DNA of 64,000 nucleotides from Pectobacterium carotovorum (GTDB lineage: Bacteria; Pseudomonadota; Gammaproteobacteria; Enterobacterales; Enterobacteriaceae), in the NCBI GenBank assembly GCA_016415585.1, contig CP066552.1, positions 4,216,001 to 4,280,000 of the forward strand. The letters run 5' to 3'. Numbering within the stretch: the stretch's first letter is position 1; every line of letters starts with the position of its first letter. Both the position numbers and the translations under genes were made by a program. A model generated the notes under the pieces. It saw only the letters and a list, made by a program, of their open reading frames with translations, ran no database searches and had not been told where the DNA came from. This document shows positions 17,072 to 18,852 of the stretch, in pieces.

Positions 17072-17746
17072 TTAAACGTCATCCAGGATAAAGGTTATCG
17101 GTACCCGATAAAAACCATCAACATATTCAGGCCTTAGCTCAGCAACTGAGGTATCTGGCTTTGCCCCATATAGCTCGATTGCTTTATCTGTCAGGGTAGT
17201 CGTTGTTACCGCTTCTTTCGCACTCGATTGGAATACACCGATCGATGATAAATAATCCAAGGGGAAATTAAACCGATAGACGCCAAATTTATTTCCCTCT
17301 CTAATGATAACATCCATAGGATTCATCACCTTCTTACCTTTTAAGGACAATTTAGGAATGTAGGTAATGAACTCAACAGGTGCTTCATCTCTAATTTCAG
17401 CCCACGTTACATTGCAGCTCTCAGCCGCAGAAGCAAGCTTTCCTTTGGATTTGAAAGCATCCGAAAGGCATAAACCCACTTTGCTTCCGGTTAAAGGTTC
17501 CATCGTAGACTTACGGATAACGTTAATAATAACTTTTACAGCACTCTGTTGTATTGATTTAACAGAATTACATTGCCCGTTTTTAAATATAAATTTATCC
17601 AACCGTTCATTAATATCATCCTTGTTATTAATTAATGCTGCATTTATTATTATAAATTTTTCATTGGGTTCACTATTGGCACGATATGTCAGACCGCACA
17701 GACTAAGTGCTACACTAGATAAGATAAAATTCCTTCTGCTAATCAT
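17072..17746 (-). CDS. Tat-signal protein of unknown function, last gene of the ferredoxin cluster
   Basis: 224 residues, not recognised. The N-terminus (MISRRNFILSSVALSLCG) has the twin-arginine pattern S-R-R-x-F-I followed by a hydrophobic core, with likely cleavage near residue 25, so it should be exported folded to the periplasm. The mature part has Cys at about positions 39, 73 and 90 (NGQCNS, VGLCLS, ESCNVT). The last 20 residues (EYVDGFYRVPITFILDDV) resemble the final beta strand of TonB C-terminal domains, but this is weak. An AGGAGG lies eight bases before the ATG and overlaps the ferredoxin stop codon, so the two genes are coupled. AT content is well above that of the flanking core genes, suggesting transfer. 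Confidence 0.72.
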   Translation of the reverse strand: MISRRNFILSSVALSLCGLTYRANSEPNEKFIIINAALINNKDDINERLDKFIFKNGQCNSVKSIQQSAVKVIINVIRKSTMEPLTGSKVGLCLSDAFKSKGKLASAAESCNVTWAEIRDEAPVEFITYIPKLSLKGKKVMNPMDVIIREGNKFGVYRFNFPLDYLSSIGVFQSSAKEAVTTTTLTDKAIELYGAKPDTSVAELRPEYVDGFYRVPITFILDDV

Positions 17747-17758
17747 TAGTCAATCCTC

Positions 17759-18052
17759 CTACCCAACCAAATCAGCCTCAGCGTGAGACATTATTGTCAT
17801 ATCTGATAAAGGATATGTTACACAAGACAATATAAACGTTCCTTTCTGAGTTCCATTGAGGAAAGATTGGTCACTATCATCATAACTTCCAAAAATCACC
17901 CTACATGCACATGATGAGCACGCCCCAGCCCGGCAACTATAAGGAAGATCAACCCCAGCCTCTTCAGCAGCATCAAGTATATATTGATCATCTGGACACA
18001 TTATTTCTTGGGTACCACTGCACCCCAAAATCTTTATCTTATATGAAGCCAT
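17759..18052 (-). CDS. Plant-type [2Fe-2S] ferredoxin
   Basis: 97 residues, no signal peptide, so cytosolic as encoded. The four cluster ligands follow the chloroplast pattern: C40, C45 and C48 in LPYSCRAGACSSC, and C77 in ILSCVTYP. The flanks are also chloroplast-like: CPDDQYILDAAEEAGVDLPYS, SDQSFL and YPLSDMTIMSHAEADL. This is quite unlike the adrenodoxin-type Fdx of the Isc system. There is a Cys at position 50 where plant ferredoxins have Gly, plus C11 and C19. Such domains in Pectobacterium are known from the M-class pectocins, where they act as the uptake domain, but no toxin domain is fused here. The Tat-signal gene follows after 12 bases. The electron partner is unknown. Confidence 0.9.
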   Translation of the reverse strand: MASYKIKILGCSGTQEIMCPDDQYILDAAEEAGVDLPYSCRAGACSSCACRVIFGSYDDSDQSFLNGTQKGTFILSCVTYPLSDMTIMSHAEADLVG

Positions 18053-18163
18053 GACTTATATCATCCTTTTAAAATAATTAATAAAAATTAGCCACATTAA
18101 TTAATAATTAACAAAATAAAAACAATATTAAATTACCAATTTTATATCTTATTTATATAAAAA

Positions 18164-18478
18164 TTAGAAGTCACACGACGGAATCTGTCCTTTACATTGT
18201 GCAACGCAACTATGAAAATTTGTACTTCCATAATCACCAGGTATATTTAATAGGTATGAACATTCGGCGATACATCTATCAACTTCGGATAGCGAATATT
18301 TCTCATTAATGAAAACCTTATTCACTTTTCTATTTTTAACAATGCAAGAATTGTTTCTTTCTATAAAATTTATCTTTCCTTTTAAAAAATCGATAGGAAG
18401 TGGTTTGCTATCCGAGCTAATTGCGTTACCAGAAAACAACAATAAAATTAATGCCATCGGAGGGGATACGTTCAACAA
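18164..18478 (-). CDS. Small secreted twin-CX3C protein, unknown function
   Basis: 104 residues beginning with a TTG at 18478, with AAAGGA seven bases upstream and an in-frame stop just before; an ATG seven codons later lacks a ribosome-binding site. Residues 6-22 (PPMALILLLFSGNAISS) form a short signal peptide. The mature protein has six cysteines: C45, two CX3C pairs (C69/C73 in RCIAEC and C91/C95 in SCVAQC, 17 residues apart) and C102. The paired CX3C layout recalls helical-hairpin disulfide proteins, but no homologue is recognised. I infer a disulfide-bonded periplasmic or secreted protein. It lies 111 bases upstream of the ferredoxin gene on the same strand. Confidence 0.6.
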   Translation of the reverse strand: MLNVSPPMALILLLFSGNAISSDSKPLPIDFLKGKINFIERNNSCIVKNRKVNKVFINEKYSLSEVDRCIAECSYLLNIPGDYGSTNFHSCVAQCKGQIPSCDF

Positions 18479-18600
18479 AACTCAATCCTTTAAAAGTATG
18501 TTAATTAATATTTTTAACTCTTGGATTTATACTTCCACAGCCAAGAAAACTTAGGGAAATCATAATTTTTATGAAAAAAATCAACCATTTTACAAATAAC

Positions 18601-18852
18601 CTACAGATTGACATCCTTATTCACATAAACCGTGAAGCCATCTGGTTTTAAATCTGGATGATCAATTGAAATATCATTTATAACCTTACCCGTTAACGTA
18701 TAAATTAAGTGCCCAGCAATATGCCGACACTTTTCATATTCATCCTGAGGCAAAGAGCTTTTCAGCACGACTAATTCTGCTTTGATTTGCTCGATAAGAA
18801 CAATTGATTTTTCAATTAAATTTTCTGCGATATTTTTATCTGAGATGAACAT
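18601..18852 (-). CDS. Small helical cytosolic protein, unknown function
   Basis: 83 residues, no signal peptide or membrane segment. Residues 5-45 are predicted helical with heptad-like spacing (NLIEKSIVLIEQIKAELVVLKSSL), and the C-terminal half looks like a small alpha/beta domain (GKVINDISIDHPDLKPDGFTVYV). AGGA lies eight bases upstream of the ATG. It is the first gene of the AT-rich cluster on the minus strand, 122 bases before the twin-CX3C gene. The size and position would fit an immunity or regulatory protein, but nothing in the sequence proves this. Confidence 0.55.
   Translation of the reverse strand: MFISDKNIAENLIEKSIVLIEQIKAELVVLKSSLPQDEYEKCRHIAGHLIYTLTGKVINDISIDHPDLKPDGFTVYVNKDVNL

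Follow-up and report, generated by a model that had tools for sequence, protein, structure and literature searches.

The locus

The window, as we call the full 64,000-nt stretch analysed here (G000:C1:4216001-4280000), comes from a Pectobacterium genome and contains a four-gene unit that we are inclined to regard, from homology and gene position, as a toxin-immunity cassette. The four open reading frames (ORFs) all lie on the minus strand between pabA and pectate lyase (pel) genes, and their coordinates agree with those of an earlier, sequence-only reading of this DNA. The names pabA and pel, and below hemN and glnG, are what we take the neighbours to be from their translations. In the order in which they are read, the genes are:

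18601..18852, minus strand: 83-aa protein, proposed immunity protein (RHS-linked homologues, profile match, lone loci, helical model)
18164..18478, minus strand: 104-aa Cys-rich protein with a TTG start and a Sec-type N-terminus, proposed toxin (profile match to three RHS tips)
17759..18052, minus strand: 97-aa plant-type [2Fe-2S] ferredoxin (TIGR02008, PF00111 and 4zho alignment)
17072..17746, minus strand: 224-aa protein with a twin-arginine (Tat) signal, predicted intradiol-dioxygenase-like beta-sandwich, no conserved His

The intergenic gaps are 122, 111 and 12 bp. A purine-rich stretch precedes every start (AGGA, AAAGGA, AAAGGA and AGGAGGA), in keeping with the credible ribosome-binding sites of the sequence-only reading. 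Its description of four same-strand, AT-rich frames is also borne out: guanine plus cytosine (GC) content in 500-base windows is 0.28-0.42 across 17000-19250, against about 0.47-0.58 across 14250-16750 on the pabA side, and gene by gene the unit has 0.33-0.41. That reading had made its case depend on conservation of the small frames as proteins. Across 28 pairwise comparisons among genus copies of the four genes, the ratio of nonsynonymous to synonymous substitution rates (dN/dS) falls at 0.05-0.48; all four are real genes whose proteins are kept by purifying selection. Identities are lowest for the Cys-rich protein, at 51-89%. Sec and Tat signals were assigned by eye. No Pfam family is matched above cut-off by the 83-aa, the 104-aa or the 224-aa protein.

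Occurrence in Pectobacterium and relatives

Genome searches covered one genome per species. The Tat-signal protein occurs in 6 of 59 genomes (the window's own and its relatives), all six within the genus, and in 2 of 394 genomes of the order, both Pectobacterium. The Cys-rich gene and ferredoxins of the cluster type are found in the same six of 25 genus genomes. The four genes are adjacent in all six carriers, each time with the ferredoxin gene immediately 5′ of the Tat gene, and the Cys-rich, ferredoxin and Tat genes were found only as a group among the 25. This distribution supports the earlier view of the four genes as one unit, for which a ferredoxin occurring apart from its companions was to be the counter-evidence; in the 25 genus genomes, cluster-type ferredoxins occur only where the rest of the cluster does. 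The protein database yielded 11 Tat and 15 Cys-rich relatives, counting the window's own, and every one with an organism name is from Pectobacterium or Dickeya. In Dickeya fangzhongdai one gene probably separates the two, since their locus tags are OHJ28_15585 (Tat) and OHJ28_15595 (Cys-rich).

Five of the genus copies adjoin pabA with identical gene order, and pel genes are on the opposite side in four of these (the G011 stretch is too short). The sixth copy, in genome G001, lies between hemN and glnG with another gene order and a fifth gene, and its proteins have diverged (28-54% identity). The cluster thus occupies two unrelated chromosomal sites. The G001 gaps are 29, -4 and 30 bp, and the fifth gene shares 17 bp with the end of the Tat gene:

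L051:8374-9015 (G001): DsbA-like gene with a CGKC motif, overlapping the Tat gene end

Because of this spacing, co-transcription appears likely for the G001 copy and plausible for the window copy. Promoter-like matches at the cluster show no excess (12, shuffle mean 14.6); terminator-like matches, 3 against a shuffle mean of 1.6, are too scarce to weigh. The DsbA-like protein carries CGKC and VGTPA; its best PDB match is a thiol:disulfide interchange protein, a weak one (E 0.035), and Thioredoxin_2 is below cut-off (E 0.018). The gene was found in one of the 25 genus genomes and is absent from the other 24 searched.

Three of the four genes form a variable cassette:

17101..18610, no strand assigned: Cys-rich, ferredoxin and Tat genes (blastn, window 16001-20000 against L072)

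At G018 only about 65 bp separate the sequences that flank this interval in the window, and the 83-aa gene is still there; the other three genes were therefore gained or lost there as a block.

The 83-aa profile matches 14 loci in 12 of the 25 genus genomes. Six loci are complete clusters, and at the other eight the 83-aa gene stands alone, at both cassette sites: pabA/pel in G009, G018 and G013, and hemN/glnG in G016, G005, G008, G018 and G006. A tblastn search with the other cluster proteins on seven of the eight lone loci (all but G008) found no remnants, the single match being of 19 residues with E 0.88. Two lone genes, those of G018 and G009 at the pabA site, were included in the purifying-selection test. 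The 83-aa gene persists alone the way orphan immunity genes do. A plasmid search with the window's 83-aa protein as query found no relative. The structure model has two long antiparallel helices (predicted local distance difference test, pLDDT, 89.4), and Foldseek gave it no match at E <= 0.001, immunity folds included. The protein has no export signal, so its protection would be cytoplasmic.

Relation to RHS tips

Distant relatives of the 83-aa protein outside the genus lie directly 3′ of RHS tips in G304, G371, G1004 and two Salmonella records. In G304 a 74-aa gene follows that of an RHS protein of 1811 aa, which matches TIGR03696 (94.5 bits) in its C-terminal part; the relative is 3′ of an RHS C-terminal fragment in G371 and of an RHS protein in G1004; and in Salmonella OX345327 and OX345172 a decayed RHS tail or tip precedes an open 74-aa gene. 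Each of these tips has a twin-CX3C motif resembling that of the Cys-rich protein, five of whose Cys are invariant in the six genus copies:

18194..18274, minus strand: twin CX3C core, Cys69-x3-Cys73 ... Cys91-x3-Cys95, also present in these RHS tips

Profile comparison of the Pectobacterium Cys-rich proteins with three open RHS tips gave prob 95.7 and E 1e-8, and that of the Pectobacterium 83-aa proteins with the RHS-linked small proteins gave prob 98.0 and E 1.6e-13. None of 200 column shuffles reached the real score in either comparison; Cys columns were kept in place when shuffling for the tip comparison. As judged by profile and position, then, the Cys-rich protein is a stand-alone form of the twin-CX3C C-terminal tip domain of some RHS proteins, and the 83-aa protein belongs to one family with the products of the small genes found directly 3′ of such tips, the immunity-gene position. 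The sequence-only reading held that all but the ferredoxin matched nothing known. That no longer stands for these two proteins and comes close to standing for the Tat-signal protein, which has a weak intradiol-type model.

The twin-CX3C RHS tip had no match of its own in Pfam and NCBIfam scans, and the same databases gave no match to RHS repeats or core (YD repeats, the large N-terminal delivery part) in the 104-aa protein. We recognised no description of this tip or of the four-gene cluster in the open-access literature searched. A DNA search found no E. coli relatives of the Salmonella pair. The two Salmonella enterica records (L091, OX345327; L092, OX345172) are short and filed as plasmids; they appear to be fragments of a chromosomal rhs orphan region.

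At 6 of 25 loci the 400 nt preceding the 83-aa-family gene hold a CX3C...CX3C frame, against 321 of 20,000 random pieces (1.6%). These are 5 of the 15 loci outside Pectobacterium and 1 of the 10 inside; the two Salmonella loci are near-identical and represent one event, and the pabA-site clusters of G023 and G011 count as misses because in them the 83-aa gene precedes the Cys-rich gene. Outside the count are the partial matches G788 and G709, Pectobacterium G000, G014, G006 (pabA site) and G008, and Salmonella H2 and H3. A CX3C profile run on 335 genomes of the order matched in nine, strongly in three (G000, G006 and G304); in the six weak ones no RHS tip or 83-aa-family neighbour is among the ORFs listed. 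This short profile is no census of tips, since the tip-bearing G371 is not among its matches.

Some 83-aa-family genes have no visible upstream RHS tip, namely L103:1255-1719 (G1004) and L094:5992-6222 (Burkholderia cenocepacia); G1004 also has a tip-linked copy elsewhere (L100).

The ferredoxin

The sequence-only reading called the third gene a ferredoxin of chloroplast type, rightly: it matches TIGR02008 (fdx_plant) at 120.3 bits against a cut-off of 81.15, and PF00111 at 73 bits. The nearest solved structure is Arabidopsis Fd2 (4zho), and alignment with it places the cluster ligands at Cys40, 45, 48 and 77. An extra Cys comes directly behind the third ligand:

17903..17905, minus strand: codon of this additional residue, ferredoxin Cys50

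Cys50 is in all six cluster ferredoxins and in none of eight other ferredoxin sequences aligned. Pectocins M1 and M2 of Pectobacterium, as presented in passages of two papers, are colicin M-like bacteriocins fused to a ferredoxin that serves as entry ticket (PMC3302902, PMC11452297). A 21-row tree, made of one plant ferredoxin and otherwise Pectobacterium sequences, unites the six cluster ferredoxins (support 92/88, below the strict mark) and places them beside Arabidopsis Fd2, away from pectocin ferredoxins; the protein is therefore not simply a split pectocin.

Other ferredoxins occur in the genus. A stand-alone one is at L044:5007-5348, in the window's own genome (G000:C1, about 2501172), with a preceding peptide at 5380-5574, and others are in L040, L041, L042, L043 and L048. 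Their length is 111-118 aa (L040, L041, L043, L044), or 129 aa by the longest start in L042; the L048 copy is incomplete. All but that of L041 are close to an LdhA-like gene. In L040, L041, L042 and L044 the ferredoxin is preceded by a charged peptide of 50-64 aa ending in GCNRxKCFCAR or a variant. Another type, a ferredoxin-like protein of about 110 aa with the cluster cysteines replaced (PYSSRAGAD, PYSGRAGSD), is at L046:5052-5384 (in the window's own genome, G000:C1, about 2949960), L045:5026-5358 and L047:4978-5310; these copies should lack the usual cluster binding. Their gene lies in a phage-tail-like cluster, between what look like a tube-type and the tape measure gene. A "ferredoxin (2Fe-2S)" is listed for the carotovoricin cluster in a passage of PMC6963963. 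A ferredoxin with a neighbouring hypothetical ORF near pectocin M1 was noted earlier, in passages that do not mention a cysteine tail (PMC3302902).

The Tat-signal protein

Three features of this protein recur in the argument below, its signal, one Cys and its fold:

17669..17746, minus strand: N-terminal twin-arginine signal, SRRNFI (alignment; motif by eye)
17468..17470, minus strand: codon of Cys93, an invariant Cys

Both signal Arg are invariant across 11 aligned homologues; Cys59 and Cys111 are both absent from the G001 type. The best structural matches to the model (pLDDT 63.8) are all of the intradiol dioxygenase type (5vg2, 4ilt/4ilv), at about 8-18% identity in the structural alignments, and with low confidence we place the protein on that fold. 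The intradiol iron ligands are two His and two Tyr. The window protein has no His at all, and its homologues have none at a shared position, so it should lack an intradiol iron site. We found no relatives when phages were searched with the window type and plasmids with the G001 type, and none in viral contigs.

A proposed toxin-immunity cassette

The four genes look like a weapon against rival bacteria. On balance we favour a polymorphic toxin-immunity cassette of unusual, non-RHS design, with the ferredoxin and Tat-signal protein as a putative co-exported carrier, because of the homology to RHS tips, the adjacent gene in immunity position, the survival of the 83-aa gene on its own and the block-wise gain or loss of the rest. 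From homology, position and orphan retention we infer that the Cys-rich protein is the toxin and the 83-aa protein its immunity protein. The carrier role is held less firmly than these two; it is plausible given the fixed adjacency of the ferredoxin and Tat genes, the precedent of co-export through Tat, and the use of ferredoxin for entry by pectocins.

In such a cassette the Cys-rich protein would be exported by Sec, become disulfide-bonded in the periplasm and act as toxin, and the 83-aa protein would guard producers and non-producers, from the cytoplasm, against toxin taken up from relatives. The ferredoxin would receive its [2Fe-2S] cluster in the cytoplasm and be exported together with the Tat-signal protein encoded next to it, the two already folded and paired. 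Together with the toxin, these two would make a multi-chain counterpart of the ferredoxin-fused pectocins. A more elaborate version, to which we allow a small but real chance, is a three-chain ferredoxin bacteriocin whose two export routes are dictated by chemistry. The ferredoxin, given its cluster in the reducing environment of the cytoplasm, would hitchhike through Tat on a dead dioxygenase-like scaffold, the Sec-exported RHS-tip toxin would fold with disulfides in the periplasm, assembly there would perhaps involve Cys50 and Cys93, release would possibly be by the type II secretion system, and rivals would be entered through the plant-ferredoxin receptor FusA.

Several observations weigh against the cassette. 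No tip is seen upstream at ten of the 15 loci outside Pectobacterium, one of which, G295, offers just 105 bp of preceding sequence; orphan status, a more remote relationship or chance could account for them. Over the stretches read, neither a ferredoxin nor a Tat gene accompanies the RHS-linked copies, so the toxin-immunity pair as such does not need them. The cluster ferredoxins stand apart in the tree from the pectocin and the other stand-alone Pectobacterium ferredoxins. Binding of FusA reportedly shifts 13 positions of the pectocin M1 ferredoxin (PMC5095587); at these the window ferredoxin and a second cluster ferredoxin each have 7 matches to a pectocin M1-like sequence and two others have 3 and 4, and Arabidopsis Fd2, with 7, equals the window ferredoxin, a comparison that points neither towards use of FusA nor away from it. 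No convincing LexA (SOS) or Fur site was found at the cluster, nor a convincing KdgR site. The candidate toxin has an export signal and the candidate immunity protein has none, so that in the producer they would meet only before export. Finally, the CX3C domain may serve in recognition and not in killing.

Three rival explanations divide the roles otherwise. The toxin-immunity pair might be confined to the Cys-rich and 83-aa proteins, with the ferredoxin and Tat-signal protein as factors for toxin maturation or protection, for example thiol control, and with no part in delivery. A thiol theme does run through the unit (the CGKC of the G001 DsbA-like protein, ferredoxin Cys50, the invariant Cys93 and the Cys-rich toxin candidate), and RHS-borne tips are accompanied by neither gene over the sequence read. 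The latter cuts both ways, since RHS-borne versions manage without such factors; moreover, the DsbA-like gene is in just 1 of 25 genus genomes, and a cytoplasmic ferredoxin needs a membrane partner to reach a periplasmic thiol. We consider this division of roles unlikely. Were the 83-aa protein instead to regulate the Cys-rich protein or act as its secretion chaperone, its small helical build, its presence in all six genomes with the Cys-rich gene and the lack of a significant Foldseek match of its model to a known immunity protein would fit. That it occurs without the Cys-rich gene at eight genus loci, two of them (G018, G009) in the purifying-selection test, and that its relatives sit after and not before RHS tips, makes such a function quite improbable.

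The sequence-only reading had left a choice between an envelope redox system and an interbacterial or plant-facing one. Its interbacterial part is strengthened by the RHS tip and immunity links and by the orphan 83-aa genes; its redox part fares badly, as the Tat-signal protein lacks a conserved His and the unit shows no further electron-transfer gene. In a redox system the ferredoxin would be the electron source for a disulfide protein and for a dioxygenase-like enzyme exported by Tat, which suits the placing of the Tat gene straight after the ferredoxin gene in each of the six genus copies, the intradiol-like fold of the model and the DsbA-like gene of G001. Without the His there would be no intradiol iron site, intradiol dioxygenases use no electron donor, and neither the homology to RHS tips and their immunity-position genes nor the orphan 83-aa genes would be explained. 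The four genes are thus probably not a redox system, and we rate that function as very improbable; the DsbA-like gene of G001 leaves thiol chemistry possible. Three other candidates were rejected. A split or frameshifted pectocin does not agree with a ferredoxin on a different branch and a Tat gene with its own start, signal and fold; prophage or plasmid cargo does not agree with searches that found no Tat relatives in phages (window type), plasmids (G001 type) or viral contigs and no relatives of the window's 83-aa protein in plasmids; and for anti-phage defence PADLOC gave no match.

If the toxin-immunity cassette is real, an RHS toxin tip can do without the large RHS shell and work as a small secreted protein, and the tip becomes linked to Pectobacterium's use of ferredoxin as an entry into rivals. 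It would also give a testable role to three protein families, for two of which the named database members are only "hypothetical" or uncharacterized, and a handle on the twin-CX3C RHS tip, which Pfam and NCBIfam scans leave without a match of its own.

Comparison with known systems

With intradiol ring-cleavage dioxygenases (5vg2 of Tetranychus; 4ilt/4ilv, SACTE_2871) the Tat-signal protein may share the overall fold, as its low-confidence model predicts; unlike them, it has no conserved His and hence should have no canonical iron site.

Tat moves folded cofactor proteins, and partners without a signal can exit with a Tat-signal partner as "hitchhikers", as a passage of PMC10924467 has it for NiFe hydrogenases. 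The cluster likewise encodes a signal-less Fe-S protein directly before a Tat-signal protein. It differs in having no hydrogenase or respiratory partner, and co-export is putative here.

The pectocins, in the passages cited above, also tie a plant-type [2Fe-2S] ferredoxin to a presumed weapon in Pectobacterium. In the cluster the ferredoxin is a separate chain of another branch, ending 12 bp before the Tat gene and not fused to it; Pfam and NCBIfam gave no colicin M match in the Tat-signal protein, and there is no immunity-family match.

RHS systems differ from the cluster in format: in the cluster the tip stands free as a Sec-type protein, with a ferredoxin and a Tat-signal protein beside it, and no RHS repeats or core were found. 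In one published Salmonella Rhs system, according to a passage of PMC3967940, the products of adjacent small genes act as specific immunity proteins. Like RHS toxin tips with their RhsI immunity genes, the cluster pairs a homologous twin-CX3C tip with a directly adjacent small gene in immunity position, and its lone 83-aa genes resemble the orphan immunity genes of RHS/RhsI systems.
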